A stretch of 64,000 bases of DNA from contig NZ_SJPF01000003.1 in assembly GCF_007859755.1 (NCBI RefSeq), positions 868,001 to 932,000 on the forward strand, read 5' to 3'. Shown one piece after another: positions 13,222 through 44,390 of the stretch. Source of the stretch: Blastopirellula retiformator (GTDB taxonomy: Bacteria > Planctomycetota > Planctomycetia > Pirellulales > Pirellulaceae). The notes beneath the pieces are model-generated. The model saw only the letters and a list, made by a program, of their open reading frames with translations, ran no database searches and had not been told where the DNA came from. The position numbers and the translations under genes were made by a program. How positions within the stretch are numbered: position 1 is the stretch's first letter; each line of letters starts with the position of its first letter.

Positions 13222-14024
13222 TGAAGAGTGGATTGCCGATGAGTTTGTTCGATACGCATGCGCATCTGTTTGACGAAGCGCTGCTGACGCAGATAGACGA
13301 TGTTGTCGCCCGGGCGAAAGAAGCCGGGGTCGAAAGAATGCTGGTCGTCGGCACGACTGCCGACGATAGTCAACAAGCGATCGAACTCGCTGAGCGTTTC
13401 CCGGAGATTTGCGCCACCGTCGGCATCCAGCCCAACAACTGCGCTGAAGTGCAGCCTGGCGATTGGGAGCGGATCGTCGCGATGCTGGATCATCCCCGGG
13501 TTGTCGCGTTGGGGGAGACGGGGCTCGATCGCTATTGGGACTACGCTCCGTTCGACTTGCAGCAAGATTATTTCGATCGGCATTTGCGGCTGTCGCAAGA
13601 GCGCGACTTTCCGTTCATCGTCCACATGCGGGATTGCGGCGACGACATTGTGACGATGTTGCAAGAGGCGGCCAAGCGAGCGCCGCTGCGAGGCGTCATG
13701 CACTCGTTTACCGGCGAACCGGCGCTGCTGCAGCAATGTCTAGAGCTGGACATGTACATCAGCTTCGCCGGGATGGTCACCTTCAAAAAGAGCGGCGACC
13801 TGCGGGAAGTGGCGGCGATGGTACCGAAAGATCGGATCTTGATCGAAACCGATTCGCCTTATCTCAGTCCAGAACCGGTCCGGGGTAAACGCCCCAACGA
13901 GCCGGCGTATGTCGCGCATACGGCCGCCTGCGTCGCCGCCGCGCGAGGCGAATCGCTCGACGAGTTTGTGAAACTGGCCACAGAAAACGCGTATCGGCTG
14001 TTCCATCGCGTCGGCAAGGCGTAG
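13221..14024 (+). CDS. TatD family metal-dependent DNase
   Basis: This is a TIM-barrel metallo-hydrolase of the TatD/YcfH group, cytoplasmic deoxyribonucleases implicated in DNA repair and degradation. Metal ligands are visible as DTHAH near the N-terminus (residues 11-15), the GETGLDRYWDY segment, HMRDCGDD, the VMHSFTGEP histidine, and ETDSPYLSPEP near the C-terminus. The length is normal. The first ATG overlaps the TAA of the preceding gene. A second in-frame ATG at 13239 gives a more typical N-terminus (MSLFDTHAH). The TAG stop is formed by the left end of a repeat element. Confidence 0.93.
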   Translation: MKSGLPMSLFDTHAHLFDEALLTQIDDVVARAKEAGVERMLVVGTTADDSQQAIELAERFPEICATVGIQPNNCAEVQPGDWERIVAMLDHPRVVALGETGLDRYWDYAPFDLQQDYFDRHLRLSQERDFPFIVHMRDCGDDIVTMLQEAAKRAPLRGVMHSFTGEPALLQQCLELDMYISFAGMVTFKKSGDLREVAAMVPKDRILIETDSPYLSPEPVRGKRPNEPAYVAHTAACVAAARGESLDEFVKLATENAYRLFHRVGKA

Positions 14025-14109
14025 CAGTCCGTTGATTTTCTCGAAGAGCTGCGCTCTGAGCCTGGCGAGGTTGGAAAATGCCACGATGGCATTTTTCAAC
14101 AGGCAGGTA
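14022..14109 (+). repeat. Family-A TA-flanked hairpin element, copy 1 (short form)
   Basis: This copy is about 88 bases including the flanking TA at each end. It starts TAGCAGTCCGTTGATTTTC and ends in a strong hairpin: TTGGAAAATGCC (14071-14082) pairs with GGCATTTTTCAA (14088-14099) across an ACGAT loop. A small AGAGC-TGC-GCTCT hairpin lies at 14045-14057. It lacks the middle hairpins of the two longer copies (28641-28761 and 44236-44390). The first TAG is the stop codon of the TatD gene. The ends are inverted relative to each other (GCAGTCCGTTGA versus GCTGCCTGTTGA in the other copies). Confidence 0.85.
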
Positions 14110-14130
14110 GTCGTCGGCGTGGGTGGTTGG

Positions 14131-14159
14131 TTTCCGGCGTGCGCCGATTGCGCTACAAT
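14131..14159 (+). promoter_or_regulatory. Possible promoter of the thioredoxin-like gene
   Basis: TTTCCG (14131-14136), a 17-base spacer and TACAAT (14154-14159) lie about 50 bases before the ATG at 14208, just after the repeat element. The -10 is good and the -35 is weak. Confidence 0.4.
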
Positions 14160-14207
14160 AGCGCAAACGTCGCCAGTCACAAGATACCGCAGAGGAGAGA
14201 CTGACCC

Positions 14208-14804
14208 ATGGTCAAAACCGAGAGCACCATGTTGCCGCTTGGCACGCCAGCCCCCGATTTTTCGCTCGTCAACGTCGACGGAAAGACCGTCTCGCTTGGC
14301 GATTTTGCCGGCGCTCCTGCGCTGGTTGTCATTTTCATGTGCAACCATTGCCCCTTCGTCAAGCACCTGGCCGATGACCTGGCCACGTTTGGTCGCGAGT
14401 ACCAGGCCAAAGGCGCCGCTGTCGTCGCGATCAGCCCGAACGATGTCGCCAACTATCCGGCCGACTCGCCAGAGAAGATGGTCGCCGAAGCGGAAGAGCG
14501 TGGTTACGCGTTCCCCTATCTCTATGATGAAACGCAAGCCGTCGCCAAGGCGTACAAAGCGGCCTGCACGCCCGACTTCTACGTTTTCGACAAAGATCAG
14601 AAGCTCGCCTATCGTGGGCAGTTTGACGCCAGTCGTCCTGGCGGCGACATCGCCGTGACCGGCGAAGATCTCCGCAAAGCGGTCGATACCGTGTTGGCCG
14701 GCGAACAGCCAAGCGACGATCAAACGCCCAGCCTCGGCTGCAACATCAAATGGATTCCTGGCGCCGAGCCCGAGTATTTCAAGCCGCAGGGCATCAACCA
14801 GTAA
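14208..14804 (+). CDS. Thioredoxin-like (AhpC/TSA-type) protein
   Basis: This 198-residue protein has the redoxin/alkyl hydroperoxide reductase-like fold. It starts with LGTPAPDFSL, then has an active-site dithiol CNHC (residues 45-48) in VIFMCNHCPFVKH. The resolving cis-proline region is represented by AACTPDFYVFD. The FMCNHCPFV-type active site belongs to a widespread group of thioredoxin-like proteins whose substrates are mostly unknown; a thiol-disulfide or peroxide role is likely. No signal peptide is seen, so it is probably cytoplasmic. It stands alone with its own likely promoter and ends convergent with the next, minus-strand gene. Confidence 0.9.
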   Translation: MVKTESTMLPLGTPAPDFSLVNVDGKTVSLGDFAGAPALVVIFMCNHCPFVKHLADDLATFGREYQAKGAAVVAISPNDVANYPADSPEKMVAEAEERGYAFPYLYDETQAVAKAYKAACTPDFYVFDKDQKLAYRGQFDASRPGGDIAVTGEDLRKAVDTVLAGEQPSDDQTPSLGCNIKWIPGAEPEYFKPQGINQ

Positions 14805-14818
14805 GGCCTGTAGGGGGG

Positions 14819-15955
14819 CTATTCAGCGGCTGCTGACGTTTCGACGCGGGATTGTTCGGTCATTCGCCGCACGATTTCGGTCGGATCGCCGGTTTCCTGA
14901 AAAATCAATCGTTGCCGATCGGCCCACGTGGGTCGGTCGGCAATTTCTTGCGCACGTCGCAAGTAATCTTCGCAGCCTAGTTCTATCGCCGACGGCATAA
15001 GCCGCTCGATGAGCCGCGCCACGATTTGGCTGACCGACTCCACTTCGTAAGTGTACGAGTTGACCAGTTGTGCGTTCGAGCCGAAGCGGCAGGCCCGCCA
15101 TTTGTTTTGGCGGACCATCATGGGGTGGCAATCGTGTTGGTAGGCGCCATGGTCAATCTCGTCCGAGAGATGTTTGACCAGGCACTGGATCACCGCCGAG
15201 ATCGTCATCGCGTCGTCCAGGTTGCCCGGCATGTCGCAGACGCGGACTTCAACCGTGCCGAAGTTATGATGCGGGCGAACGTCCCACCAGATTTCGCGAA
15301 TCGTATTGATGAATCCAGTGTCGACCATGTGGTTGACCAGCCAGACGTACTCGCTCCAGTTGCGCATCAAAGGAGGCAGGCCCGCGGTCGGCAAACCTTC
15401 CATGATCTTGCTGCGATGCGAAGCGAGGCCGGTATCGTGGTTTTCCCAAAAGGGACTGCTGGTCGACAGGGCGAGCAGCACCGGCAAGTACTGCATGATG
15501 CGATCGCAGATCATCACCGCCTTATCGCCCGATTCGACGCCAACATGCACATGCAGCCCATTGGTAACCAGGCGGCGGGCCATCTCTTGTAGCAATTCGA
15601 CCAGGTTCAGGTAGCGCTCGGTCTGCGTTACCTGTTGTTCGGACCAGTGCGAGAACGGATGCGTCGATCCCCACCAGAGTCGGAGACCGTGTTGGTCAGT
15701 CAGCGCCTGAACCGCGGCCAGGTTGCGGCGGAGATCCCCTTCGGCCTGATCGATGGTCAGGCAGATCTCGGTGTTGATTTCCAAGCAGCACTGCATCAGC
15801 TCCGGTTTGATCCGCGAGGCAACTTCCGGCGGGGCGACTTCGATCAACCGTTGGACCGAGTTCGCCAAAGCCATCGTCTGGTTGTCGACGATGCCCAGTT
15901 CCAATTCGATGCCGACGGTAAACGCCTCGTTGGACGTGAAAACTAGCTTGCTCAT
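14819..15955 (-). CDS. YbdK-type carboxylate-amine ligase (GCS2 family)
   Basis: This ATP-dependent ligase belongs to the glutamate-cysteine ligase type 2 superfamily. YbdK-type members have weak glutamate-cysteine ligase activity, and their true substrate is uncertain. Family features are FTVGIELELGIVD at the N-terminus, the ELMQCCLEINTEIC segment with metal-binding acids, NGLHVHVGVESGDKA, and the HHNFGTVEVRVCDMPG catalytic segment. The start at 15955 (MSKLVFTS) matches the family. An in-frame ATG at 15973 adds six residues. The length of about 378 residues is normal. Confidence 0.9.
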   Translation of the reverse strand: MSKLVFTSNEAFTVGIELELGIVDNQTMALANSVQRLIEVAPPEVASRIKPELMQCCLEINTEICLTIDQAEGDLRRNLAAVQALTDQHGLRLWWGSTHPFSHWSEQQVTQTERYLNLVELLQEMARRLVTNGLHVHVGVESGDKAVMICDRIMQYLPVLLALSTSSPFWENHDTGLASHRSKIMEGLPTAGLPPLMRNWSEYVWLVNHMVDTGFINTIREIWWDVRPHHNFGTVEVRVCDMPGNLDDAMTISAVIQCLVKHLSDEIDHGAYQHDCHPMMVRQNKWRACRFGSNAQLVNSYTYEVESVSQIVARLIERLMPSAIELGCEDYLRRAQEIADRPTWADRQRLIFQETGDPTEIVRRMTEQSRVETSAAAE

Positions 15956-16005
15956 GGCGGGGCGATTCCTCAAGCGGGCAGCGAAGGAAGGGGCGGCGGA
16001 TGCGA

Positions 16006-17232
16006 TCAGCGATGCGGTTCGTGGGGTTCGAACGCATGAATGACGGTACTGGCCAACGTCCGTGCGCCGATCGCCAGGACCGCTTCGTCGATATCAAACA
16101 GGGGGCTGTGTAGTAGCGGCGCGACGTCGAGCGATGGAGAACGACAGCCAAGTCGCGCCATCGCGCCAGGCACATGTTCGAGATAGAATGCAAAATCTTC
16201 GCCTCCCATGCTGGCTCGAGGAATCTCATATATCGCCTCGTGACCGAATGACTCGACGATCGCCGTTTTCAAGTGCGAGATCGGCTTGGCCTCGTTGATG
16301 ACGGCGCCAGTGCCGACGTCAAAATGAATGGCGATCGAGGTGTCGGTCGCTCGCTCAACCCCTTCGATGACGCGGTGCATGTGGTCGATGGTCCGTTGCC
16401 GGACGTCGCGATCGAGCGTGCGCAGCGTGCCGAGCAGTTCAACTTGTTCGGGAATGACGTTCAGGTTTTCACCACCGTAAATTCGCCCAAAGGAGAGGAC
16501 GACGGCGTCCTGGCTGTCGGTCACGCGGGGGATCGACAGGTACAACGCGTTGATCAACTGGGCGGCCGCCGCGATCGGATCGCGCGACTCATGCGGTCGG
16601 GCGCCGTGGCCGCCTAGGCCATGGATCAAGATCCTTACCGCATCGCAACTGGCGGTCAGCGCTCCGACCCGTAAGCCGATTCGCCCGGTCGGCAACATCG
16701 GATCGACGTGGGTCGCGTAGATCTCACGCACTTCTTTCAAGGCGCCGACCGAAATCATTTCCGACGCGCCGACGCAGGTTTCTTCCGCCGGTTGGAAAAT
16801 CGTTCGCAAACGCACCGGCCAGGGGAGGGCGCCCATGCGATCGAGTTCGACGATCAGGGCCGTCGCCCATAGCGCCATCGTCGCGTGCGCGTCATGCCCG
16901 CAGGCATGCATCAGGCCGGGGCATTGGCTGCGGTAAGGAATGTCTTTTTGATCCTGGATTCGCAGACCGTCGATATCGCCGCGAACGGCGATCGCCTCTG
17001 GCAGCGCCTCGGCGTGCGGCGTATGCCATTCGGCCAGCACGCCGCGCCCCTCGGGCCCCATGCGCAGATCAATCCCTAGCGAGTTCAACTCCTGGTAAAT
17101 CGCCAGGCTGGTGTGATACTCGTGACCAGAGGGCTCGGGGTTTTGATGCAGCCGTCGGCGGAAGTCGATCCACTTCGGCTCTTGGGCCGCGATCAACGCC
17201 GCGAGTTCGGATTGCCAGGTTCGTTCGATCAT
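16006..17232 (-). CDS. M20 family amidohydrolase (N-acyl amino acid / hippurate hydrolase type)
   Basis: This zinc-dependent amidohydrolase of peptidase family M20D probably releases free amino acids from N-acyl or similar amides. The pattern is complete: RRRLHQNPEPSGHEY, VRGDIDGL, HACGHDAHATM with metal-binding His and Asp, FQPAEE with the catalytic and metal glutamates, and MGGEDFAFYLEHVPG near the C-terminus. The 408-residue length is normal. No signal peptide is seen. It is transcribed away from the terminator at 17340-17362. Confidence 0.92.
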   Translation of the reverse strand: MIERTWQSELAALIAAQEPKWIDFRRRLHQNPEPSGHEYHTSLAIYQELNSLGIDLRMGPEGRGVLAEWHTPHAEALPEAIAVRGDIDGLRIQDQKDIPYRSQCPGLMHACGHDAHATMALWATALIVELDRMGALPWPVRLRTIFQPAEETCVGASEMISVGALKEVREIYATHVDPMLPTGRIGLRVGALTASCDAVRILIHGLGGHGARPHESRDPIAAAAQLINALYLSIPRVTDSQDAVVLSFGRIYGGENLNVIPEQVELLGTLRTLDRDVRQRTIDHMHRVIEGVERATDTSIAIHFDVGTGAVINEAKPISHLKTAIVESFGHEAIYEIPRASMGGEDFAFYLEHVPGAMARLGCRSPSLDVAPLLHSPLFDIDEAVLAIGARTLASTVIHAFEPHEPHR

Positions 17233-17332
17233 GTCTAAAGAGTACGCGACAGGTCAGGAAAAGTTAATCTATCCTGATTTACGGTAGCATTTTGGGGGCG
17301 TTTTGGTCCGCTGTAATCGCGACAAACCAGGC

Positions 17333-17362
17333 AAAAAAAAAGGCTCCCGAAGGAGCCTTTTT
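17333..17362. terminator. Bidirectional intrinsic terminator
   Basis: GGCTCC (17342-17347), a CGAA loop and GGAGCC (17352-17357) form a stem flanked by nine A on the left and five T on the right, so it can act on both strands. On the minus strand it would end transcription of mqnD before the M20 gene. Confidence 0.85.
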
Positions 17363-17413
17363 ACCGTTTCAGCGGATTGTTGGGAACAGATCGCCCCAGC
17401 GTGAATTGCCGCC

Positions 17414-17518
17414 TAGAGCGTTTTTCTGATAGCGGTAGCGTTTCTGGCGTTAGTGAGGCAAGCTGGTCAAGGCGGCCGCAACCAGCCAGAACGATACAGA
17501 TGGAGGAAAACCGCTCTA
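17414..17518. repeat. Family-B TA-flanked palindromic element
   Basis: This element of about 105 bases starts CTAGAGCGTTTTTCTG and ends with the inverted counterpart of CTAGAGCGGTTTTCC. These ends match at 13 of 15 positions. Further inside, GTAGCGTTTCTGGC on the left matches the reverse complement of a right-hand segment near 17486-17502. The whole element can therefore fold into a long imperfect hairpin. It is flanked by TA on each side, and its right end forms the TAG stop codon of mqnD on the minus strand. Its sequence is unrelated to family A. Confidence 0.75.
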
Positions 17519-18376
17519 GACGAACTCAGGTTCGATCAGCGTCGGGATAACGCCTGCTTCGTAACCCTTGCGAAGGAACAGGCGGACCGACTCGCGGCCT
17601 TTTTCGCCAAAGTCGACCGTCCAGTCGTTGACGTACATTCCGACGAACTTGTCGGCCAGTTGGTTGTCTAGCCCGCGACCGAACTGCAGCGCGTAGTCGA
17701 GCGCTTCCTGGCGATGATCGAGCCCGAAGACGATGCTTTCTTTCAGCAGACGGGTCACTTCGCGAATGTTCTCTTCGCCGAGATCCTTGCGAATGCCATT
17801 GGCGCCCAGCGGCAGCGGCAAGCCGTCGGTCAGGTCGTGCCACCAAACGCCGAGATCGACGATCAGCTGCAGTTGCTCACGACCGAAGGTCAGCTGCCCT
17901 TCGTGAATGATCAGGCCGGCGTCGAGCTTTTGCCCTTCGTACTCGCCGGCGGCGACCGATTCGATGATCTGGTCAAACGGCACGACGACATGCTTGAAGT
18001 CGGCGTCCAGACAGAGACGCAGAGCCAAAAAGGCGGAGGTCAGCGTCCCTGGCACGGCGATCGTCTTCGACTTCAGGTCTTCCAGCGAGCAGGCCTCTTT
18101 GGCGACGACCATGGGGCCGTAGTTGTCCCCCATGCTGGCGCCGCACGAGCAGATCGCGTACTTGTCATACAGATGCGCGTAGGCGTGAATGCTGATCGCG
18201 GTCAGCTCCAGCTCACCCTCAAAAGCGCGACGGTTGAGAGTCTCGATGTCGACCAGTTCGTGCTCGAAACGGTATTCGCCGGTGTCGATCTTATCCGCGG
18301 CGAGCGCATAGAACATGAAGGCGTCATCGGGATCAGGACTATGGCCGACGCGAATCAGTTGAGTCGAGGTGGACAA
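17516..18376 (-). CDS. mqnD: 1,4-dihydroxy-6-naphthoate synthase (MqnD), futalosine menaquinone pathway
   Basis: This periplasmic-binding-protein-like enzyme of the futalosine route converts cyclic dehypoxanthine futalosine to 1,4-dihydroxy-6-naphthoate. The N-terminus HSPDPDDAFMFYALA is the family hallmark, followed by the ELTAISIHAYAHL and MGDNYGPMVV segments and the DAGLIIHEGQLTF motif. The length of 286 residues is normal. MqnA-type proteins are related, but the DPDD motif points to MqnD. Its presence suggests the organism makes menaquinone by the futalosine pathway, consistent with a menaquinone-using complex I nearby. No other mqn genes are in the window. Confidence 0.88.
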   Translation of the reverse strand: MSTSTQLIRVGHSPDPDDAFMFYALAADKIDTGEYRFEHELVDIETLNRRAFEGELELTAISIHAYAHLYDKYAICSCGASMGDNYGPMVVAKEACSLEDLKSKTIAVPGTLTSAFLALRLCLDADFKHVVVPFDQIIESVAAGEYEGQKLDAGLIIHEGQLTFGREQLQLIVDLGVWWHDLTDGLPLPLGANGIRKDLGEENIREVTRLLKESIVFGLDHRQEALDYALQFGRGLDNQLADKFVGMYVNDWTVDFGEKGRESVRLFLRKGYEAGVIPTLIEPEFV

Positions 18377-18551
18377 GGGAAAACCTCCGGGTCAAATCGC
18401 TAAGTGCAGGGCAATCTCTCAATCGTCGCCGATCTGCCCGACCTACGCAACCGGGGCACAGGGGGAAGATAGGCGACCTTATCGAGACAACCGCAGGTTG
18501 CGAGCAGGCGCAACCTGTTTTGGCGATTTCGAGCCGGGAGATTCCCCAGAA

Positions 18552-19112
18552 TTAGGCGTCCAGCGAGAAGCCGGAACCATGTCCCGAGGCGTAGTCGCCG
18601 GCGGGCGGGGAGTGCGGGCCCCAGCTCGTTCCACCCTGGTGACCACTTTCGGGCAGCGGTTGCGAGTTGGAGACGGTGATCTCCTTCACCTCTTCACGAG
18701 GCATTTCGGGCGCCTCGGGCATCGCTTCACACAACTGGCTCCAGGTATCCCGTTCTTCTTCCAATACCGGAATCAGCGACAGGATCTTTTCGTACTGATT
18801 CGAGATCTGGATGTCCGACAGTTCGCGAAACAGATAGAGATAGACGCCGGCGACCTGGCCTGCTAGCGGCGTAATCTGCGGGCGGATGTTGATCAGAATC
18901 TCGGTGATGATTCCGCGGCAACGCAGCAGCGCTTCCCAAGCGGCCTCGTCCTGCCCCTCGTCCTTCAGGTGCTTGGCCTGTTGAGCGAAGCGAATGGCGC
19001 CGCCGATCAGCATCAATTGAAGCTTTTGCGGGGTCGCCGTCAGGACTTCCGTTTCGAGATAGGAGTTGGTTGCGCCGTATTCGAACATGAACTCTGCCGG
19101 GTTAGATATCAA
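18552..19112 (-). CDS. fliS: Flagellar export chaperone FliS
   Basis: This cytoplasmic chaperone holds flagellin unfolded before export. The N-terminal helical core matches FliS: the YLETEVLTATPQKLQLMLIGGAIRFAQQA segment, then two more helices to about residue 130. The C-terminus (about residues 130-186) is a proline/glycine/serine-rich tail that is not part of the family, making it longer than the usual 125-135 residues. It follows fliD by 72 bases on the same strand, the usual fliD-fliS order. The giant flagellin encoded just upstream is its expected client. Confidence 0.9.
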   Translation of the reverse strand: MISNPAEFMFEYGATNSYLETEVLTATPQKLQLMLIGGAIRFAQQAKHLKDEGQDEAAWEALLRCRGIITEILINIRPQITPLAGQVAGVYLYLFRELSDIQISNQYEKILSLIPVLEEERDTWSQLCEAMPEAPEMPREEVKEITVSNSQPLPESGHQGGTSWGPHSPPAGDYASGHGSGFSLDA

Positions 19113-19184
19113 GAAGTTGGGGTTACTGGGCGTTGCTTTATCTATCGGACGCTGGCGGGCCCGGCTTTGTGCGATTTTCCGCGA

Positions 19185-27567: not shown

Positions 27568-27789
27568 CTACTTCGTCTTACGGAGAGCGGCGGCTTCGTT
27601 CGGCTGCAGCCGAGCCGCTTGTTGATTCTCGCGTTGAATCGCCTCGTACACCTCTTGGCGGTGAACGGGGATATCTTGCGGGGCGGCGATCCCTAGACGG
27701 ACTTTGTCGCCGCGAATATCGACGATCGTGATCACGATGTTATCGCCGATCATGATGCTTTCGTCACGATGCCTCGACAAGACGAGCAT
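27568..27789 (-). CDS. csrA: Carbon storage regulator CsrA
   Basis: This small RNA-binding dimer controls translation and mRNA stability. The protein has 73 residues: the N-terminal [18 protein letters not shown] strand, the [23 protein letters not shown] core with the conserved RNA-contacting arginine, and a polar tail rich in Ala and Gln. A clear AAGGAG precedes the ATG. It lies next to fliW and upstream of fliC, the same grouping as in the Bacillus CsrA-FliW-flagellin switch. A GCCGATAG string (27933-27940, minus strand) upstream resembles a sigma-28 -10, but lacks a good -35. Confidence 0.97.
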
Positions 27790-28476: not shown

Positions 28477-28640
28477 GGTCGAAACGTCTCGATCAGTGAT
28501 GCATTGCTGGCATTTCGCCCTTGCGGCGATCCAATTCCTAACATTCCGAATTATCGGCTGCCGGAAGGAGGCGAATCCATAAAATCCGAACATCCAGCGC
28601 AGAACGCTGTTGACCGCATTTACTATCGCATCGCTCGACT

Positions 28641-28761
28641 TAGCAGTCCGTTGATTTTCTTGACGGACTGCGTGATCGCACGGATGCGAGCCGCGAAGAG
28701 CTATGCTCTGAGCCTGGTGAGGTTGGAAAATGCCACGAGGGCATTTTTCAACAGGCAGCTA
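28641..28761. repeat. Family-A TA-flanked hairpin element, copy 2 (medium form)
   Basis: This copy of about 121 bases runs from TA to TA. It begins with hairpin 1, GCAGTCCGT paired with ACGGACTGC. A TCGCA-CGGA-TGCGA hairpin follows, then the AGAGC-TAT-GCTCT hairpin, and it ends with TTGGAAAATGCC / GGCATTTTTCAA (28723-28751). The right end CAGCTA forms the TAG stop codon of flgL on the minus strand, so the element abuts a gene end as in copies 1 and 3 but with its other side. It lies in the flgL-fliW gap. Confidence 0.88.
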
Positions 28762-31700
28762 GATATAGTCGAGCAGCGACAACTGATAGATCTGGCCGAT
28801 CGTCTGCAGCGAAGCCTGGTAAGAGGCCTGTTGCGCCGCAAAGTTAGATGCCGCTTCGACAAAGTCGACCTCGATCTCGTCCGACAGGTTCGCCTGCAGT
28901 TCGATCATGTCGTCATCGAGCCGCGTTTTCAGCAGATCGACGTTTTGCGAGCGGGCGCCAAGCTCGCCGCGCGTGAAGCTGAGCCGCTCCAGGTCGGCGT
29001 CCAGCGAATCGACCAGGCGGCTGATCTGCACATAGTCGCGGGCGACGATCGATTCGTTCAGCTTAATCAGCGTATTGAAGACGCTTTTGGTCTCCCGCAG
29101 ATTGACGTCCTTGCCGGCCAGGACTTCGGCGGTGCCGCCGGAGGTTGTGCCAACCGCGCCGGTCGCCGACACGGTTCCGCTGCCGTCATTGGTCGTATCG
29201 ACGCTCCGGTCGAGTTCGGCCTGAAACGTCCCTTCCAGGTTGATCGCGTTGATGATCTCGGTGGTCGTCGTGACGCCGGCGTCGATCGAAACGGTCAGCG
29301 TTTTCGCGCCCGAGTTATAGACGGCGGTTGGGTCGCCGGAGACCAGCGTATCGGTGAAAATGATCTCGACGTCATTGTGTCGCGTGCCTGGATAGAGCGA
29401 CTGCAGCGAGAAGGCGGTATTTACGTCTTCCGGCGTTGCAAACGCAACGGCGGCCGTGGCAGGCTCGGCGTCGGCGACCGGCGTGCCGCCGTTGGTCGAC
29501 GCCAACACGCCAACGTCGGCGACTAGTCCCGTGCCGTTGTTGGTCGGATCGTTTTCGAGCGAGAGATCGGCGCTGAAGATGCCGTCGGCGTTGATCGCCG
29601 CAACGACCGTATTGGCGGTGGTCGCCGCCGGATCGACGTCGATCGTCAGCTTTTTGGTGGTCGGATCGTAGTTGACGATCGCCTGATCGCCGGAGGCGGT
29701 GGAGTTGACGAACTCGACCTGGACGTTATTGAACGTCGTGCCCGGCAGAACGGCCTTGATTTCGATCGCGTTGTTCGCATCGCCAGGGGGCGCAAACTCG
29801 ACCGTCGCCGCCGCTTGCGTGGCGGTTGGCGAATCGGAGACGGTCGTGACCAATTCTCCTTCCGGCATCAGGCCGAGATCGATGACCGCGTGGCTAAGCG
29901 TCTCGCGCTCGATGGTCAGACGTCCGACTCCCTGGGGATTGTCGTCGATCAACTCGATGCCGTTGCCGAAGTCGGCCAGTTTGGCGACGATCGGGCTGCC
30001 ATCCTGGTTGTCAGGATGATTATTGATCAGGTTGAGAACGTCGCCGATCGTCTTGGCGCTAGAAACGTCAATTTCCAGTTGCTGCCCATCATTGCGAGTA
30101 ATCGTGAAGTCGGTTCCGTCGGTCGAATTGACTCCCAGGCCATGGTTGAGCGAACTGAGTAGCGTCGACTCGCTGAAGGTGCGCAGGCCCAACTGCGAGG
30201 CGGTTGTGCCCCCATTCTCGCCGATGCTGAAATCGCCGCCGCTGACCACCGAACGCAGATTGATGCCGCTGCCGGCGGTGTTGATTTCGGCCAGAAGCCC
30301 CAGTCCCGCCCCATTGAGGATATTGAGCAGGTCCTCGACCGTTTCCGCCTCTTCCAGCGTCACGACTTGCGTCTGTTCCCCATTGGTGATCTGCAGACCC
30401 GATTCGGCGTCAAAGTTGGCGCCGCTTCCCCCTAGAAACGTCCCGGTGACCGTCGTGTCGATGACGCCAGTGCCGCTCTGAAAGTCGGAGATCGAGTCGT
30501 GGTAGTCGATTTCGGCTGAGTAGAGTTCGCTGAAATTGGCGTCGTCATTGAGCGCCTCAACCAGATGATTGGCGGTAGTGCGATCCGCATCAACCCGTAC
30601 GAAGATCGCGTTCTCGTCGCCGCCGCTGTTGCCGGTGTTGCCGATCGGGCCGTCGTCGGTGGCCGAGACGAACGACGCGGGATTGAACGTATTGCCGTTA
30701 GAACTGTCGGGGCGCACCGAGAAGGTCCCCTCGGCGATAATGGCGTTCATTAACGTCTGCAGCGACGTCTCATCGCTGTCGTCGACAGCCAGCGTTAGGG
30801 TGCGCGTCGTACCGTCGTCGCTATAGGTGGCCGTTGCGGCGTCGCCAATGTCGTCCGAGGCGTCGATCACAATGTTGACGTTGTTGAAGTCAAAGCCGGC
30901 CTGATTGGCGGTCAAAATCAAGTCGTTGTTGCCGCCTGATAGTGGAACGGCGGCTCGGGCTTTGACGCCGACGTCCGACACGGTCGTGGTATAGGTGTTC
31001 GCGCTGTTGGTGGCGAGTACGGCGCTGGCCGGATTGTAGGTTTCGCCAGTCGATCCATCAAAACCGACTGAAAACCGCCCATCGGCCAAAAAGGCGTCGG
31101 TGAGCGTTTGCAGCGTCGTTTCGTCAGTGTCGTCGATCTGCACGGTGATCGTCTTGATGCCGTTGATGGTGGTCGTGGGACCAATCACCGCGGCGTCGCC
31201 AATATCGCCCGAGGAGTCGAAATTGATGCTGACGCGATCGAGACTGCCGTCGGTCGAGTTGGCGGTCAGCAGCAGACTGTTGCCGGCGCCATCGAGGTTG
31301 AGCGTCGTTTGGGCCCGCTGTAGGTCTTCGGCGAAGTTGACCACTTCGTTGCCGCGGGTCAGTCCCGGCTTGGCTTGCAGCAAGTCGTCGTTTACCAGGT
31401 TAAGCGTCACCCCGTTCGCTTCGGCGCCATTGTTCAGGGCGTTCAGGATGATGTCGTTGTTCGAGCCGGCGTATGAGACGAGCGCTTGGGCTCGCGCACC
31501 GAGCAGGTCGGCCAGCTTGGTCGACTTGGTGATGATCGGATCGAGGTCGGCGCCTTCGATCGGGTTGACGCCATTGCCGTTGGTTTTCAGGATGCCCAAC
31601 TGGGCGGCGACGCGACTTCCCCCTTCTTCGCGAATCGTCAGGTTTCCGCCGCCGGCGTCGTCGATGTCGATTACCAAGCCGTTGTTGTCGATCCGAGCCG

Positions 31701-34927: not shown

Positions 34928-35347
34928 TTACGCCAAAGCGTCCAACAGCGGAGCGCTCGGTTGATCGTCTAACGTTTGAACGGCCTGCAACAAGCTGACC
35001 TGTTTCCAGTGCGGGGGACGTTGCGACGAATCGCTAGAGCTGCTGCTCGCATTCGGTTCGGCGCTCAAATTTTGTTGCGACATGAATTGCTCGAACATGG
35101 GACCTGACAGCTCCTGGGCGCTCGCCTCAGACAGTTTTTCAACCAGCAGTTGATCGAGTTGCGATTGGAAGACCTCTTCGCCGCGACCGCCATGAAAATA
35201 GGCGGGCTTGCCGACCGACTTCCGCATCGACTTCAACATCTGGCCAAACAGCGTCTCGCCGACGAACTGATCGAACTTTTCCCGAACTTCCAAGTTCTTG
35301 GCGTTGGGAGCGGTGACATTCGGATCGGCGTTGACGTTGCTAACCAT
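34928..35347 (-). CDS. flgJ: FlgJ-type rod-binding protein (no muramidase domain)
   Basis: This 139-residue protein matches the N-terminal rod-binding domain of FlgJ: FDQFVGETLFGQMLKSMRKSVGKPAYFHGGRGEEVFQSQLDQLL, then a helix and a serine-rich tail. The peptidoglycan-hydrolase domain found in enterobacterial FlgJ is absent, as in many other bacteria that use a separate hydrolase. It lies between flgI and flgN, the expected place. Confidence 0.88.
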   Translation of the reverse strand: MVSNVNADPNVTAPNAKNLEVREKFDQFVGETLFGQMLKSMRKSVGKPAYFHGGRGEEVFQSQLDQLLVEKLSEASAQELSGPMFEQFMSQQNLSAEPNASSSSSDSSQRPPHWKQVSLLQAVQTLDDQPSAPLLDALA

Positions 35348-35368
35348 GATTTTTCTTTCCGGCGATCG

Positions 35369-36517: not shown

Positions 36518-36531
36518 GTTCGTTTCCTTGC

Positions 36532-38090: not shown

Positions 38091-38120
38091 GGGTTTCCGT
38101 GTCCGGTAAGTGGCAAACGA

Positions 38121-38921: not shown

Positions 38922-38957
38922 GGTCGTTACTTAATCCAAGGGGAAAAACGCCGGCGG

Positions 38958-39725
38958 TTAGCCTTGGCGGAGTACGCGGTTTACCAGGTTTCCGAGCATC
39001 TCGTCGTGGTTTTTGATCAGGTTGACGTTCGCTTCGTAGGCGCGTTGGGCTTCGATCATGGTCATCATTTCGGTGATCGAATTGACGCCGGAGCCTTCCA
39101 GAAATCCGGGACGGGTCTGACGTTCGTCTATTTCCAACTCCTGCACGCCGGCCAGCGGATAAAAGGCGGTGTCGCCATACTTGGCCAAGTCGCTTAGCGA
39201 AGCGGGTTTGACCATCGACAGCGGGACGACGTCGCCGCCAACGGTGACGAAACCGTTGGTGTCGAAGTAGTCGCCCACGTGGCGGGCCAAAGCTTCGGGA
39301 TCAACCTGGATTGGCTCGCCTTGCGTGTCGAGCACCGGGTTGCCCGAAGCGGTGACCAGATTGCCTTCGGCGGTGAAGGTGAAGTCGCCGGCGCGAGTCA
39401 GATACTTTTGCCCGTCGATCAGGATCTGGAAGAAGCCTTCCCCTTCGATCGCCAGGTCGGTCGGCATGTTGGTGCCTCGCAGCGTGCCGCGAGCGTAGTC
39501 GGTGACCCGTTCGCTGACGTAGACGCCGCCGCCGACATCGTTGATCGAGCCAGAGTTGGGATAGTCTTTGCCGTCCTCAATGGCCTGGGAATAACGAGCC
39601 TGGAGAACGGCTAGATCGCGCTTGAAGCCCGCCGTGTCGACGTTCGCGATGTTGTTTGCGAGCACTTCGACCCGTTGGGCTTGGGCTTGGGCGCCTTCCG
39701 CGGCGATGTATAGGCCGTATGGCAT
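38958..39725 (-). CDS. flgF: Flagellar proximal rod protein FlgF
   Basis: This rod protein of the FlgF type has an N-terminus (YIAAEGAQAQAQRVEVLANNIANVDTAGFKRDLAVLQARY) that differs from FlgG. The middle LAIEGEGFFQILIDGQKYLTRAGDFTFTAEG and the C-terminus EGSGVNSITEMMTMIEAQRAYEANVNLIKNHDEML complete the family pattern. The protein has 255 residues. It is the first gene of the flagellar run and is preceded by a sigma-54 element, so it probably heads the operon. Confidence 0.94.
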   Translation of the reverse strand: MPYGLYIAAEGAQAQAQRVEVLANNIANVDTAGFKRDLAVLQARYSQAIEDGKDYPNSGSINDVGGGVYVSERVTDYARGTLRGTNMPTDLAIEGEGFFQILIDGQKYLTRAGDFTFTAEGNLVTASGNPVLDTQGEPIQVDPEALARHVGDYFDTNGFVTVGGDVVPLSMVKPASLSDLAKYGDTAFYPLAGVQELEIDERQTRPGFLEGSGVNSITEMMTMIEAQRAYEANVNLIKNHDEMLGNLVNRVLRQG

Positions 39726-39772
39726 TTGTGCGTCTCATCCATGATTCGCCCCCCCAGGCGTCGCTCAACTAA

Positions 39773-39788
39773 TGCAAGGGGCGTGCCG
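39773..39788 (-). promoter_or_regulatory. Sigma-54 promoter of the flagellar operon
   Basis: On the minus strand the sequence reads CGGCACGCCCCTTGCA. That is GGCACG at -24 and TTGCA at -12 with the required spacing (GG and GC ten bases apart). It lies about 36 to 50 bases before the flgF ATG. Sigma-54 control of middle rod and hook genes is common in polar-flagellated bacteria. Confidence 0.8.
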
Positions 39789-39997
39789 AAACTTGCGTCA
39801 GTTGGCGGAAGAAACGGAGCGAAGCTCGCAAGTGCTGCAAATAACGAGAGATACGACGAACGGAATTGAATCGGCCGCTCGCGAAGGTGCGACCAGAACG
39901 TCGCGCAGAAATTGCCGAACACGCAGGGATTGCGGAACGCTAGCGGAAAGAGTTGCCGGTAGCGACGTTGTTTGCCGGTTGGATCAAGTGCTGATCA

Positions 39998-40047
39998 CTT
40001 GGCGCCATGTTCTTCTCGCGAAGACGCGATAAGAACATGGCGCCAAG
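39998..40047 (-). ncRNA. Long hairpin after hemC
   Basis: The stem pairs CTTGGCGCCATGTTCTT (39998-40014) with its perfect complement (40031-40047). A single C/T mismatch follows, then a five-base-pair TCGCG/CGCGA inner stem and an AAGA loop (TCTT on the minus strand). It begins four bases after the hemC stop on the minus strand. There is no T-run, so it is not a classic terminator. A hairpin with the same fold occurs at 53236-53269. Confidence 0.6.
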
Positions 40048-40051
40048 GCGA

Positions 40052-40978
40052 CTAACCGCCGGTTGCTCGGGCGAAGGCGATCAGTCGTTCGGCGCCTTGG
40101 ATCGCCAGTTGGTCGGCGACCTGACGGCCAATGTCTTCGGCGCGATTGGGCGGTCCGCAGGCCGAGGCGGTGATCTTGTGGTGGCCGTCGCCGCTGACGA
40201 CGACGCCATCGAGAAACAGCAACTGCTTGGCATCGTCGATCCGTCCCCAAGCGCCGACCGGCGCCAGGCATCCGCCTCGCAAGTTGCGAAGCATCGAACG
40301 CTCGGCCAAGACCGAGTAGTGGGACGGAGCGTGATTGAGCGGCGCTAGCACGTCGGCCGAGACCATGTCGTTCTCACGAATCTCCAGACCTAGCGCTCCT
40401 TGGCCAACGGCCGGCAGCATCTGCGTCTTCGGAATGACGTGGCGGATCCGTTCGTACATCTCAAGCCGGCGGAGGCCCGCTTCGGCCAGGATGATCGCGT
40501 CATAGTGACCGTCGTCCAGTTTGCGGAGCCGGGTGTCGAGATTGCCGCGGATGTCGCGGATCTGCAGATCGGATCGCAGGTGTAACAGTTGCGCTTTGCG
40601 GCGCATGCTGCCGGTACCGATGATCGCCTCGTTCGGCAGGCTGAGGACGTCCGACGCCTTGGGCGAGATCAGGACGTCGCCATCGGCCGCACGTTCGGGC
40701 ACCGCCGTCAGTCGTAGGCCCGCGACCGCTTCGGTCGGCAGATCTTTGAGACTGTGGACGGCGACGTCGATGCGGTTGTCGAGCAGGGCCGCCTGAATTT
40801 CGGTCGTAAAGACGCCCCGTCCGCCGATCGAGTCGAGGGGGCCTTTCGTGACGTCACCTTGGGTGGCGATCTGGATGATTTCGACTTCCGCTCCGCCGGC
40901 GCGAAGCTGATCGGCAACCCAGTTGGCTTGCCATTGTGCGAGTTGACTGCCTCGCGTTCCAATCCGTATAGCTGGCAT
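40052..40978 (-). CDS. hemC: Hydroxymethylbilane synthase (porphobilinogen deaminase)
   Basis: HemC joins four porphobilinogen units into the linear tetrapyrrole for heme. The start IRIGTRGSQLAQWQANWVAD and the arginine-rich active-site strands are conserved (DVAVHSLKDLP, GTGSMRRKAQLLHLRSDL, RGNLDTRLRKL). The dipyrromethane-binding cysteine is in RGGCLAPVG (about residue 237). The length of 308 residues is normal. It is a single minus-strand gene between the flagellar block and a DUF502 gene. Confidence 0.96.
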   Translation of the reverse strand: MPAIRIGTRGSQLAQWQANWVADQLRAGGAEVEIIQIATQGDVTKGPLDSIGGRGVFTTEIQAALLDNRIDVAVHSLKDLPTEAVAGLRLTAVPERAADGDVLISPKASDVLSLPNEAIIGTGSMRRKAQLLHLRSDLQIRDIRGNLDTRLRKLDDGHYDAIILAEAGLRRLEMYERIRHVIPKTQMLPAVGQGALGLEIRENDMVSADVLAPLNHAPSHYSVLAERSMLRNLRGGCLAPVGAWGRIDDAKQLLFLDGVVVSGDGHHKITASACGPPNRAEDIGRQVADQLAIQGAERLIAFARATGG

Positions 40979-41134
40979 AGGTCTTGAGGAGTCTGAGGAG
41001 GGCCGTTCTGTAAGAGGTATCGGCGGAAACTTGCCCTTTCCAGCCAGATGCCCTACGAGTCGTGATTCTCGTATCCCCCGATAGAATAGCGTAACAAGCG
41101 AAGCTTAGCGAGACTTACGCCCAAAAGGTGGGGG

Positions 41135-42223
41135 CTATTTCTGCACGAACGGGGGTGAGTCGCTCACCGCATGGGGCTTGCCGTTCTGCTCCGCTTCGGC
41201 GTGCGCCTTCTCTTCGGCGATCTGCGTAGCGATGCGACTGGCCATTTCCCGGGTCATTTGATGGTCGGGGACGACCACGCCGCAGCTGACGATAAATTGT
41301 AGCGCCTGGTCCAGCGTGATGTTCAGGTCGACCGTCTCACTTTTCTTGACGTTGACCGTAAATCCGGTCGCCGGCATCGGCGATGTGGGGATCAAGACGG
41401 TCATCACCGGTTCGTTGGCGACGCTACGAATATCGAGGAGGCTCTCGCTGGTGACGAAGCCGAGCGACCAGATTCCCTTTCGCGGGTATTCGACCGCCAC
41501 GATCCGCGTGAACTCCAGCTCCCGCTCATTGAGCAGGAAGTCGGTCACCTGCTTTACGGAAGAATAGACGTTGCGCACGATCGGCAACCGGTGCAGAATT
41601 TGTCGTTCGGACGCGGTCCACAAGATCCGGCCGACTCCGATCGCGACGAACTTGCCGGAGAAGTAAAGCAGCAGCACAAAGATGCAGAGGAGGGCGGGGA
41701 TCGTGATCTGGCGACGCAAGAAGCGCAGTTGCACATATTCCTGGTAGAACGCGGCGCCCGAGTAAGGGAGCGGCTGATCGTGCAGGTTCTGATCGACCAG
41801 ATTGTAGACCGAAGCCGGAATCCAATCGCCGTTGGGCGTTTGATGGTAGACGGTGTTGTGCAGCATCGCGGTCTCATCGCCTGGCTGCGCGTCCGGCATC
41901 GTCCGATGCACGTCGCGGATCGCCATCGAAACGAAGTAACGCGCGGTCGCCTCGACCGGAGTCAGCACGTAGTTCTGAACCGACGATAAGACCCAGATCA
42001 GGATCAAGATCGTCAGCAGCGGAGGCGCAACCAGACCGAGACCGCGCAACAGTGCGCGGCGGAAGGATTGGATGCCGCTCGGTTTTTTGGGTTGCTCTTC
42101 CGAATTCATATCTAACTGCAGGGGTTTGCTAGCAGTGCGCGGTGCTGCACGAGATTCTTCGACTGTCGGCCGGCTGTCGAGTGATTCGGAAACGTTAGTT
42201 TCCTGTTTCGCCGAGTGGCGCAC
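41135..42223 (-). CDS. DUF502 family membrane protein
   Basis: This is an integral membrane protein of unknown role. One transmembrane helix lies at about residues 58-83 and a second at about residues 170-195, followed by the conserved DUF502 domain (RLPIVRNVYSSVKQVTDFLL, then FVTSESLLDI, then MTVLIPTSPMPATGFTV). An extracytoplasmic-type loop of about 85 residues between the helices is longer than usual. The N-terminus is uncertain: ATGs at 42223 and 42109 (MNSEEQPKK) are both possible. The first 29 bases overlap the end of comF, upstream on the same strand. Confidence 0.85.
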   Translation of the reverse strand: MRHSAKQETNVSESLDSRPTVEESRAAPRTASKPLQLDMNSEEQPKKPSGIQSFRRALLRGLGLVAPPLLTILILIWVLSSVQNYVLTPVEATARYFVSMAIRDVHRTMPDAQPGDETAMLHNTVYHQTPNGDWIPASVYNLVDQNLHDQPLPYSGAAFYQEYVQLRFLRRQITIPALLCIFVLLLYFSGKFVAIGVGRILWTASERQILHRLPIVRNVYSSVKQVTDFLLNERELEFTRIVAVEYPRKGIWSLGFVTSESLLDIRSVANEPVMTVLIPTSPMPATGFTVNVKKSETVDLNITLDQALQFIVSCGVVVPDHQMTREMASRIATQIAEEKAHAEAEQNGKPHAVSDSPPFVQK

Positions 42224-42980
42224 GTGCGGCGACCGCTACGATTACGCGATCGGCGCCGCTTTTACGCATTTTACTGGTTATCTCGCTGGCCGTCGCGCCG
42301 CTGGTCATCACGTCGTCGACCAGCAAAACGGAGCGTCCGGCCAGCAAATGGGGCGTTTTCACCCGAAAACCGTCCCGCACGTTCGCTCGACGAGCGGTGA
42401 TGCGCAGCTCGGACTGCTTACGCATCCTTCGCGAAATTTTTAGCGCCTGGGGACGAAATTTCACATTCAGACGCTTGGCAATCGCTTCGCCCAGGCGCTG
42501 AGCAGGATTGAATCCACGACGAATTTTCCGCATCCAGTAAATCGGTACCGGTACGACCAGATCAATTGGTCCCAGCCACTCGGTGGCGGCGACTTGATCC
42601 GCCAATAGATCGGCTACTGCTGCGCAGACGGGAGCGCCGCCTGCCTGTTTGGCGGCGATGATCGCGTGCTGCAATAAGCCGGCGTGATCCCCCAGCGGAA
42701 TCACGCCTTCCCATTTTAGGCGCCGTTGGCGACAGAAGTCACAACCGTCGGCGCCCGGTACGTGCCCTGGAGGCAAGCGATTTCCGCAGCGCGAGCAGCG
42801 AATGGCCGCTTCAAGAAGCTGCTGGCGGCAGGTCATACAGCAGGGCGCCGCATTTCCCGCAGTCGCCTCTACGGCGGAAAGACAAAGTGGACACGCAGCC
42901 GGCAGCAGCAATCGTCGCCAAGGCGAGATTGCCCAGCTTGCGAGTGTTCGCCAGTTGGTTGCGGTGTGCGTCGTTGACAT
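42195..42980 (-). CDS. comF: ComF family phosphoribosyltransferase-like protein
   Basis: This is a ComF/GntX-type protein, linked in other bacteria to DNA uptake or use of DNA as a nutrient. The N-terminal zinc-binding part has four CxxC pairs (ACPLC, CCMTC, CSRC, CDFC). The C-terminal phosphoribosyltransferase domain has VVPVPIYWMRKIRRGFNPAQ and the PRPP motif VLLVDDVMTSGATASE. I chose the ATG at 42980 (MSTTHTATNW); 42989 is also possible. The frame is open to 43109 without family similarity. It overlaps the start of the DUF502 gene and is divergent from the lptF/G-like gene. Confidence 0.88.
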   Translation of the reverse strand: MSTTHTATNWRTLASWAISPWRRLLLPAACPLCLSAVEATAGNAAPCCMTCRQQLLEAAIRCSRCGNRLPPGHVPGADGCDFCRQRRLKWEGVIPLGDHAGLLQHAIIAAKQAGGAPVCAAVADLLADQVAATEWLGPIDLVVPVPIYWMRKIRRGFNPAQRLGEAIAKRLNVKFRPQALKISRRMRKQSELRITARRANVRDGFRVKTPHLLAGRSVLLVDDVMTSGATASEITSKMRKSGADRVIVAVAARAPLGETGN

Positions 42981-43086
42981 GCCGCCCATTATAGGGGAAG
43001 GAGTGGTCCGATTCACCTTTGGGAAAAATCGCCTTCGCGGTATAGTCTCTGGCGATTTCCGCTTCGATCCCGTCACCTCTGTCGAG

Positions 43087-44238
43087 ATGATTCCGGCCGT
43101 GTACATCATCGACCGCTATCTGCTGCTGCAGTTCGTTAAGTCGTTCCTGATCTTCTTCGTCAGCTTTACTGGGCTGTACGTCGTGATCGATTCGTTCAAC
43201 AACCTAGACGAGTTCCTGCGGTACGGCGAAGAAACGGGACGGGGCGCGTTTCCGATCTTGATCGACTATTACACGCCGCGGATTTTTACCTTCTTCAACA
43301 TGACCGGGGGCATTCTGACGCTGATTGCGGCGATGTTCACCGTCACCTGGCTACAGCGGCACAACGAAATGACCGCGCTGATGGCGGCCGGCATTACCAA
43401 AGAGCGAATCGTCCGCCCGGTGATTATCGCGGTGGCGGTGATCGCGGTGCTGGGCGCTTTGAACCGGGAATTCGTGGTGCCGGAATACTCCGACGCTCTC
43501 AGCCGCAACGCCCAGGATTGGCTGGGCCAATCGGCCAAGCAGATGCAACCGAAATACGACAACCTGACCGACGTGCTGATCAGCGGTAATCATACCTTCG
43601 CCAACGAGATGCGGATCGAAGGCCCCAAGTTTCGGCTGCCGCGGTCGCAGGCGGGGATGGGCGCCAAGTTGAACGCCGAAAATGCTTTCTTCAAACCGGC
43701 CGAAGGAGATCGCCCCAGCGGCTACTTGCTTGACAACGTCACCGAGCCCGAAAACCTGGCCGAAATCCCGTCACTGCTCGATCGGGAGGATCGCGTCTTT
43801 GTGATGATGCCGAAGGACAACGCGTGGCTGGCGCCGAATCAATGCTTTGTCGTCAGCGAACTGACGTTCGAGCAACTGACCGCGAGTCGCGAATGGCGCA
43901 ATAGCGCCTCGACCTGGGCGCTGGTCTCGGCGCTCCGCAATCGCTCGCTCGACTTTGGCGCCGACGTGCGGGTCGAAATACACAGCCGGCTGACGCAGCC
44001 GTTTCTCGATATGACGCTGCTGCTGTTGGGATTGCCGCTAGTTTTGAAGAACGACAATCGCAACGTGTTTGTGGCGATCGGCTTGTGCGGCGCAGTGGTG
44101 GTCCTCTTTTTCGCAGTGACGATGGCCAGTCGCGGCATGGGCGCCAACTACATGATCAGCCCGGCGCTGGCGGCCTGGTTTCCGCTGATGGTCTTTGTGC
44201 CGTTTGCGACGTACATGTCCGAAGCGATGCGGGCCTAG
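43087..44238 (+). CDS. LptF/LptG family permease (YjgP/YjgQ)
   Basis: This membrane permease belongs to the LptBFG type, which extracts lipopolysaccharide from the inner membrane. The start at 43087 gives MIPAVYIIDRYLLLQFVKSFLIFFV, matching the family. The frame is open 95 codons further upstream without similarity. Helices at the N-terminus and in the C-terminal 100 residues (FLDMTLLLLGLPLVLKN) flank a periplasmic beta-jellyroll-like region (about residues 150-290). Only one paralogue is present in this window, so F versus G cannot be told apart. Its TAG stop is the left end of a family-A repeat. Confidence 0.88.
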   Translation: MIPAVYIIDRYLLLQFVKSFLIFFVSFTGLYVVIDSFNNLDEFLRYGEETGRGAFPILIDYYTPRIFTFFNMTGGILTLIAAMFTVTWLQRHNEMTALMAAGITKERIVRPVIIAVAVIAVLGALNREFVVPEYSDALSRNAQDWLGQSAKQMQPKYDNLTDVLISGNHTFANEMRIEGPKFRLPRSQAGMGAKLNAENAFFKPAEGDRPSGYLLDNVTEPENLAEIPSLLDREDRVFVMMPKDNAWLAPNQCFVVSELTFEQLTASREWRNSASTWALVSALRNRSLDFGADVRVEIHSRLTQPFLDMTLLLLGLPLVLKNDNRNVFVAIGLCGAVVVLFFAVTMASRGMGANYMISPALAAWFPLMVFVPFATYMSEAMRA

Positions 44239-44390
44239 CAGTCCGTTGATTTTCTCAACGGGCTGCTGGATCGCAGGGACGCGATCCCAAAATAGCGACA
44301 TAAGTCGTTATTTTGCGAGCCGCGAAGAGCTATGCTCTGAGCCTGGCAAGGTTGGAAAATGCCACGAGGGCATTTTTCAACAGGCAGCTA
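44236..44390. repeat. Family-A TA-flanked hairpin element, copy 3 (long form)
   Basis: This is the longest copy, about 155 bases, from TA to TA. It is a string of five hairpins. Hairpin 1 is a 13-base-pair stem (44237-44249 with 44255-44267) with one G-T pair. Hairpin 2 is GGATCGC / GCGATCC (44268-44287). Hairpin 3 is AAAATAGCGAC / GTCGTTATTTT (44289-44314). Hairpin 4 is AGAGC-TAT-GCTCT (44326-44338). Hairpin 5 is TTGGAAAATGCC / GGCATTTTTCAA (44352-44380). Its first TAG is the stop codon of the lptF/G-like gene. It lies between two convergent genes. Confidence 0.9.

Follow-up and report, generated by a model that had tools for sequence, protein, structure and literature searches.

The 64-kb stretch of DNA analysed here (hereafter, the window) covers positions 868,001-932,000 of contig C3 of the Blastopirellula retiformator genome (G000, our own genome in what follows; 6.2 Mb in total). 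It contains three copies of a hairpin-forming repeat element, which lie next to a TatD_DNase gene, a flagellin-domain (FlgL-type) gene and an LptF_LptG gene. An earlier note on this DNA had described three copies with common ends and the same last hairpin, one end of each copy forming the TAG stop codon of its neighbour, and all of this is present in the sequence of the window. The right-end word GCATTTTTCAACAGGCAG occurs three times there (up to 3 mismatches allowed), compared to 0.05 expected. We consider it highly probable that these copies belong to a family of miniature inverted-repeat transposable elements (MITEs) with a 4-bp YTAR-like target duplication (Y, C or T; R, G or A), moved in trans probably by an IS5/IS1182-like DDE transposase.

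The boundaries of the element had to be redrawn. The base that the earlier note had taken as the first G of the element varies with the flank (G, A or T) and recurs on the opposite side, and is therefore part of the duplication and not of the element, which begins CAGTCC instead of GCAGTCC; the proper spans are those of Table 1. Likewise, the TA placed on both sides of each copy holds as the core of the target, but the actual flanks are the 4-bp repeats GTAG/GTAG, TTAG/CTAG and CTAG/CTAG, the repeat being therefore imperfect in copy 2.

The element is abundant and duplicates a 4-bp target

A search of the whole genome with the right end, allowing up to one mismatch, revealed 292 matches (147 + 145), while the reversed pattern used as control gave 0. 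The tallies that follow come from the first 1.2 Mb of contig 1, taken as an unselected sample, plus the window, which makes 1.264 Mb with 11,743 N bases. They include the 53 copies in which both ends were recognised, leaving out one-ended forms, forms interrupted by an insertion sequence (IS) and forms of 27-42 bp. Most of these copies (46/53) are 149 or 150 bp long, and the other seven (82-139 bp) are internally deleted. The element runs CAGTCCGTTGA...TCAACAGGCAG and has imperfect terminal inverted repeats, 8 of 11 bases being identical by eye when CAGTCCGTTGA is compared with CTGCCTGTTGA, the reverse complement of the right end.

Identical 4-bp flanks were observed in 40 of the 53 copies; over 20,000 shuffles the mean was 11.1, and no shuffle exceeded 23. 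The duplicated 4-mer in these 40 copies is mostly CTAG, TTAG or CTAA. Its first base is C in 20, T in 14, A in 4 and G in 2, the central T and A are invariant, and the last base is G in 29 and A in 11, so that C or T comes first in 34 copies and G or A last in all 40. The identical flanks therefore identify the duplicated target as YTAR-like, not as TA.

The earlier note had attributed the element to an IS630/mariner-like transposase. IS630 and mariner elements duplicate TA only, and the invariant TA at the core of the target would fit this. However, the bases outside the TA repeat too: of the 48/53 copies with TA on both sides, 41 have the same first base left and right, and 44 the same last base. 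Moreover, the rarer targets GTAG, ATAG and ATAA also recur, as whole 4-mers, on both sides of a copy, and the ISs with similar ends that we found are IS5/IS1182-like, although no search aimed at IS630 transposases was made. That an IS630/Tc1-mariner transposase with TA duplication moves the element is, in our opinion, extremely improbable.

Repetitive extragenic palindromic (REP) families carry a fixed tetranucleotide tag and make no duplication. Here the flanking 4-mer varies between copies and repeats within a copy in the 40 cases mentioned, which argues against a REP/REPIN-like palindrome moved by a tyrosine transposase (REP-associated tyrosine transposase, RAYT, of IS200/IS605 type), though no search for a RAYT gene was made. 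This mechanism seems very improbable to us, even if the element is palindromic and extragenic with a GTAG-like tetranucleotide at its ends, and GTAG REPs are reported from the Planctomycetes-Verrucomicrobia-Chlamydiae (PVC) superphylum (PMC3733652).

Tiny forms of about 27-43 bp, consisting either of the first hairpin (H1) alone or of both ends as one palindrome, were also seen in our own genome (C1:439684, 959221, 867567, 203455 and 686328-686370). Most of them have YTAR-like 4-mers on both sides.

Table 1. Element copies, their flanks and related features of the window (H1-H5, hairpins)
Feature	Positions	Strand	Remarks
Left target duplication GTAG, copy 1	14021..14024		14022-14024 = TAG stop of TatD_DNase gene
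Copy 1	14025..14106	+	82 bp, internally deleted
Right target duplication GTAG, copy 1	14107..14110		
csrA gene	27568..27789	-	73 aa; possible trans-acting partner, outside the element
Left flank TTAG, copy 2	28640..28643		One base off duplicate; sister loci have a single TTAG (L192, L193) or CTAG (L191)
Copy 2	28644..28758	+	115 bp, internally deleted; consensus positions 1-46 + 76-149
Right flank CTAG, copy 2	28759..28762		28759-28761 on - strand = TAG stop of flagellin-domain (FlgL-type) gene
Left target duplication CTAG, copy 3	44235..44238		44236-44238 = TAG stop of LptF_LptG gene
Copy 3	44239..44387	+	149 bp, full length
Hairpins of copy 3			Element coordinates: H1 1-27, H2 30-49, H3 50-77, H4 81-109, H5 113-143, tail 144-149
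H2 hexaloop AGGGAC, copy 3	44275..44280	+	ANGGAN, CsrA/RsmE-type (putative function)
Right target duplication CTAG, copy 3	44388..44391		

The window also contains a separate palindromic repeat at 40005-40046 (TTGGCGCCATGTTCTT...AAGAACATGGCGCCAA), for which the sister genome G002 gives many matches.

Empty sites in sister species

We compared the insertion sites with three sister species of the same genus (G001, G002 and G003). At window sites 1 and 2 the insert is absent from all three: homology stops at the flank and resumes, without insert, 25-74 bp further on at site 1 and 31-32 bp further on at site 2. In the aligned sisters a single stop codon occupies the target: at site 1 it is TAG in G002 but TGA in the other two, and at site 2 it is the stop of TTAG (G001 and G003) or CTAG (G002). 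In C1:312976, where our own genome reads GGTTAA[element]TAAAGG with the right repeat one base shorter, G002 has one GGTTAAGG, and two homologous stretches of G002 overlap at the target. The sites C1:316266 and C1:309646 are also element-free in the sisters compared, with poorer flanks. Window site 3 is empty in the sisters as well, but the gene ends in TGA there, and therefore the empty target is not seen at this site. The empty sites that the earlier note had predicted were thus found at window sites 1 and 2 and at C1:312976. With its many copies, inverted repeats, target duplication and empty sites, the element behaves as the non-autonomous, MITE-type element that the note had proposed.

Insertions lie at gene 3' ends

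All three window copies sit at a stop codon, as the earlier note had stated. In the larger sample this holds for about half: with genes called by our own simple hexamer caller, the flanking repeat is the stop codon of a gene in 25/53 copies, and none of the 53 lies inside a predicted gene, which we read as selection against gene disruption. The 25 stop copies exceed the 10.4 expected at tetramer-matched non-gene sites (binomial p = 5e-6), and the use of stops is also raised in comparison with other non-gene YTAR sites (odds ratio 3.4, p = 2e-5). However, relative to sites within 50 bp downstream of gene ends (380 stop and 239 other sites, counting YTAR sites only, whereas A or G is the first base in a few of the 53 copies) the odds ratio is 2.0 and not significant (p = 0.14), and on this basis we discarded the idea that stop codons are targeted specifically, over and above gene ends. 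What the sample shows is that gene 3' ends, where stops supply many YTAR sites, are preferred or tolerated; 43/53 copies are at a stop or within 150 bp of a gene 3' end.

The way in which the stop is kept also differs from that first imagined, in which a G at the end of the element rebuilt it. TAG or TAA after C or T is itself YTAR, and because all four bases of the target are duplicated, the stop is kept, and the insertion harmless, in either orientation. The orientation at stops is indeed mixed (11 sense, 14 antisense). Insertions that disrupt genes would be selected against, and the copies left are mostly at or soon after gene ends. We also considered reading frames that cross the joined flanks as a sign of disrupted genes. 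Since such frames are frequent in the copies, including those at stop sites, they are no evidence of disruption.

Insertion sequences with similar ends

A relative of the presumed transposase, with DUF772 and DDE_Tnp_1 domains, is encoded in our own genome, and its right end TCAACGGGCTG abuts CTAG. The G000 and G001 proteins are 61% identical. The IS of G001 is 1472 bp long, with ends CAGCCCGTTGAAAAA that match each other at 18 of 20 bases and CTAG on both sides; that of G025 (1069 bp) also has CTAG flanks and ends matching at 17/20 bases. The IS of G003 (1377 bp, TTAA flanks) has the ends CAGGCTGCTGAAAAA, which match each other at 15/20 and are the least like those of the element. With the NCBIfam model IS5_4 (cut-off 140 bits) the G003 protein scores 196 and passes, while those of G000 (94.8) and G001 (89.1) fail. 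With IS1182 (cut-off 270 bits) all three are below the cut-off (G000 163, G001 168, G003 208), although no NCBIfam model fits the G000 and G001 relatives better. By these scores the group is provisionally placed between IS1182 and IS5_4.

Judging from the similar ends and the CTAG flanks, an IS5/IS1182-like insertion sequence, whose ends share their core with those of the element, most likely mobilised the element. Its DDE transposase, supplied in trans, would make a staggered cut at the 4-bp YTAR-like target, which leaves the four bases duplicated on both sides, as the flanks and empty sites show.

Several observations weigh against this scheme. The ends of the element, CAGTCCGTTGATTTT and CTGCCTGTTGAAAAA, are similar, but not identical, to the IS ends CAGCCCGTTGAAAAA. 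The G001 relative has an in-frame stop. The relative in our own genome is truncated at its N-terminus, its residue 9 aligning to residue 63 of the G001 protein, and a frame that we take to be IS3-type orfA-like occupies the truncated side; as a consequence, no intact transposase was found in our own genome in searches with PF01609 and PF05598. In addition, 13/53 copies lack identical flanking 4-mers, including C1:312976 (TTAA/TAAA), and beyond our own genome only 9 of the 19 copies tallied have them (4/6 in named records). To these points we add the TGA stops of the sisters at site 3 and the non-significant comparison with sites near gene ends, both given above.

Other candidates for the motor were rejected. 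One is an IS, presumably IS4/IS231-like, with six PF01609 copies, five of which (L157, L159, L160, L166 and L167, but not L158) lie inside the last hairpin of an element. This IS has the ends ATACCGTTCGGCACGCC, with a 13-bp repeat, TGCCACGAGGGCA, read in L059; it was seen also in L050. It seems to target the last hairpin and, because its copies sit within it, is a parasite of the repeat, not its motor. Another IS, which encodes a 406-aa protein and which we label ISAs1-like, has ends (CACGGCGAT) that do not match the element. Finally, we scanned the first 1.2 Mb of contig 1 for an autonomous element, requiring two ends separated by 400-3500 bp and the same 4-mer on either side. All hits were neighbouring copies, except for two copies into which the IS4/IS231-like IS had inserted. 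A single weak pair was detected in L072 of G001.

The element occurs across the order

The DNA matches to the element in the three sister genomes number only 2, 7 and 4, and the RNA model of the element gives 4, 8 and 7. With the best candidates scored, up to 10 per genome in the order and up to 7 in the phylum, the model has matches in 50 of 296 genomes of the order and in 8 of 392 genomes of the phylum, 6 of these 8 belonging to the same family as B. retiformator. Named records carrying the core are Planctomycetota bacterium LB_PLM_3 and Pirellulales bacterium SJ86. The plasmid and phage collections searched gave no match, and Rfam gave no family match at the element (five loci, E values up to 5). 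No prior description of the element was recognised in the literature on MITEs, Planctomycetes ISs, stop codons and CsrA sponges, covered at the level of titles and abstract openings and with subscription papers mostly outside its scope; nor, within the same scope, did we find literature joining Pirellulales with miniature inverted-repeat elements.

Note that a contig of a viral collection (L268; IMG/VR contig IMGVR_UViG_2891333991_000001) has a copy very like those of our own genome, cut off where the analysed part of that contig ends. More distant relatives were also seen. The f8 genomes (L241, L242 and L243) have a 119-nt relative, with two NGGAU loops by eye and, in L241, a tandem pair 4 bases apart. 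L248:301-423 (G606, same phylum but other family) has a distantly related row of hairpins, in which ATGGAT and AGGAG loops are seen, again by eye, and which lacks the CAG ends.

Five genomes of genus g38 have one related core each, in all five cases inside a tRNA gene array. The CAG ends are absent from the 4/4 cores examined by sequence, three of which are in the 33-copy alignment described below with ANGGAN in H2. The element could derive from, or have given rise to, a single-copy structured RNA of the host in this array. Since the cores may be fossil insertions, the direction is ambiguous; moreover, the core is on the strand opposite to the tRNA genes, and at least three other g38 genomes have no match at E 1e-4. 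We regard such a relationship as quite unlikely.

The fold of the element is conserved

The fold of the + strand of copy 3 is a row of five hairpins (-73.4 kcal/mol), far more stable than the folds of shuffled sequences (z -8.3), and that of the - strand is so too (z -5.9). A MAFFT alignment of 22 copies (f1, f2 and f4) gave a covariation of 0.186, compared to 0.107 when shuffled, a value reached by 0/500 shuffles, and at most 0.074 when the pairing was slid. In the same alignment 12 pairs change on both sides, a level reached by 24/500 shuffles, and the pair types (38 compared to 37.1 shuffled) show no excess. We then took 33 diverse copies, those passing E 1e-22 in 32 chosen loci, which leaves weaker relatives such as L241-L244 and L248 outside the loop counts. 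In their alignment to the model, which leans to structure, 40/52 pairs change on both sides, compared to 16.4 when shuffled and at most 24 when slid. The hairpin string is therefore kept across the order by compensatory changes, and the body is no random remnant; we infer that the fold is under selection in active lineages.

Two readings of this selection were weighed, and both concern the fold without competing with the mobility of the element as a MITE. In the first, the fold is kept for reasons at the level of DNA or transcription, either as cruciform ends for the transposase or as terminator-like hairpins that limit the cost of insertion. In support of this, the arms of H3 and H5 are A-tracts and T-tracts whichever strand is read, the two strands of copy 3 fold far better than shuffles (see above), and most copies are at or near gene 3' ends. 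Furthermore, the mismatches show no strand asymmetry. An excess of G-U over A-C, considered as a sign of selection on the RNA of one strand, was rejected, as the mismatch types are 22 and 20; the mismatch cells are 50 and 27, but cells are not independent, and the singleton mismatches of our own genome are 8 G-U and 11 A-C. What this reading leaves unexplained is that the loop of H2 keeps its A and GGA but not its two N positions. It is plausible to us, if a little short of probable.

The H2 loop resembles a CsrA site

In the second reading the conserved fold works as an RNA that binds CsrA, a putative mobile docking site that may titrate CsrA or let CsrA restrain or aid the element. CsrA/RsmE sites are described as ANGGAN hexaloop hairpins, with RUACARGGAUGU obtained by systematic evolution of ligands by exponential enrichment (SELEX) and CAGGA(U/A/C)G as the CsrB repeat (PMC7652899). 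Among the 33 diverse copies, the H2 loop has GGA in 32 and ANGGAN in 23, with the exact CAGGA[UAC]G in 5. The weighted frequencies along the loop are A 0.92, N 0.45, G 1.00, G 0.91, A 0.96 and N 0.54, so that the A and GGA stay at 0.91-1.00 while the letters of the stem turn over (0.42-0.91) with pairing kept in 91% of the cells. Our own genome has GGA in 66 of 69 copies, the first N being the sole loop position that varies much. In further support of this reading, CsrA was found in 25/25 genomes searched, with 13 family matches in our own genome compared to 7 in each of the three sisters, and the f8 relatives have the two NGGAU loops mentioned above. The CsrA of the window has, by eye, the L4 and R44 that a figure legend of PMC7652899 names.

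Other results argue against CsrA binding. Each 149-nt form has a single strict loop, GGA being found elsewhere in the 33 copies in the H5 loop (5), H3 (1), H1 (0) and H4 (0). The mean information of the H2 loop (1.26 bits) is matched by the H5 loop (1.32) and the H4 arms (1.32-1.35), and H2 is therefore not the sole constrained part. The orientation at stops is mixed, and copies with one facing gene end are 10 sense and 22 antisense (p = 0.05); the sense RNA is thus not preferred at host genes. The near equality of G-U and A-C mismatch types points in the same direction. Finally, CsrA number does not track the element: G037 has 14 CsrA and one match, G033 has 4 CsrA and at least 10 matches. 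Binding of CsrA by this RNA is, consequently, something that we propose tentatively, as rather unlikely.

Comparison with known systems

The RUP and Correia/NEMIS MITEs resemble the element in being non-coding, about 100-200 bp long, with terminal inverted repeats, hairpin transcripts and TA in the target, and IS630-Spn1 is the presumed source, in trans, of the transposase of RUP (PMC2229807). Unlike them, the element has a 4-bp YTAR-like duplication, and the IS with similar ends is IS5/IS1182-like. The target duplication of bcr1 differs from the YTAR-like 4 bp seen here, and we know of no order-wide spread of bcr1. The likeness to this repeat of the Bacillus cereus group lies in its being a high-copy, MITE-like repeat that is often part of untranslated regions, as PMC3446304 reports, whereas the sequence and the host phylum differ.

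Regarding the transposase, PMC10359306 gives YTAR as the target duplication of the IS5 family, in agreement with the duplication seen here. Further likenesses to this family are the DUF772 and DDE_Tnp_1 domains of the G000 relative and the G003 relative, which passes IS5_4; the G000 and G001 relatives, however, fail this model and do better, though below the curated cut-off, with IS1182. IS1272, of the IS1182 family, is reported to replace stem-loops instead of duplicating its target (PMC5678879). As regards the loop, the ANGGAN hexaloop or CAGGA(U/A/C)G is shared with CsrB/RsmE-type hairpins, but CsrB has 22 GGA sequences (PMC7652899), while the element has one strict loop per 149 nt, is mobile and multi-copy, and its binding is putative.

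Implications

The stop-codon pattern shows how a 4-bp duplicated target turns stop codons into safe landing sites. As a rule, MITEs degenerate once a burst is over, and nothing prevents their interior sequence from drifting. Here, in contrast, the 149-bp interior keeps a hairpin string and a constrained loop like a protein site through several families of the order, and it is this multi-hairpin body with a CsrA-type loop that is the less ordinary part of the family. DNA matches range from 2-7 to about 300 per genome within one genus, and the fold is nonetheless kept, which makes it directly testable whether MITE folds are selected, and for what.

It is also conceivable, if unlikely, that an order-wide mobile family carries a conserved CsrA-binding RNA. 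Each insertion transcribed in the sense direction would then put a CsrA site at the 3' end of a host message, and with about 300 copies in a genome that has 13 CsrA-family matches, CsrA could be titrated or its regulation rewired. If the loop does bind CsrA, transposons would have here a means of connecting to a global RNA regulator.

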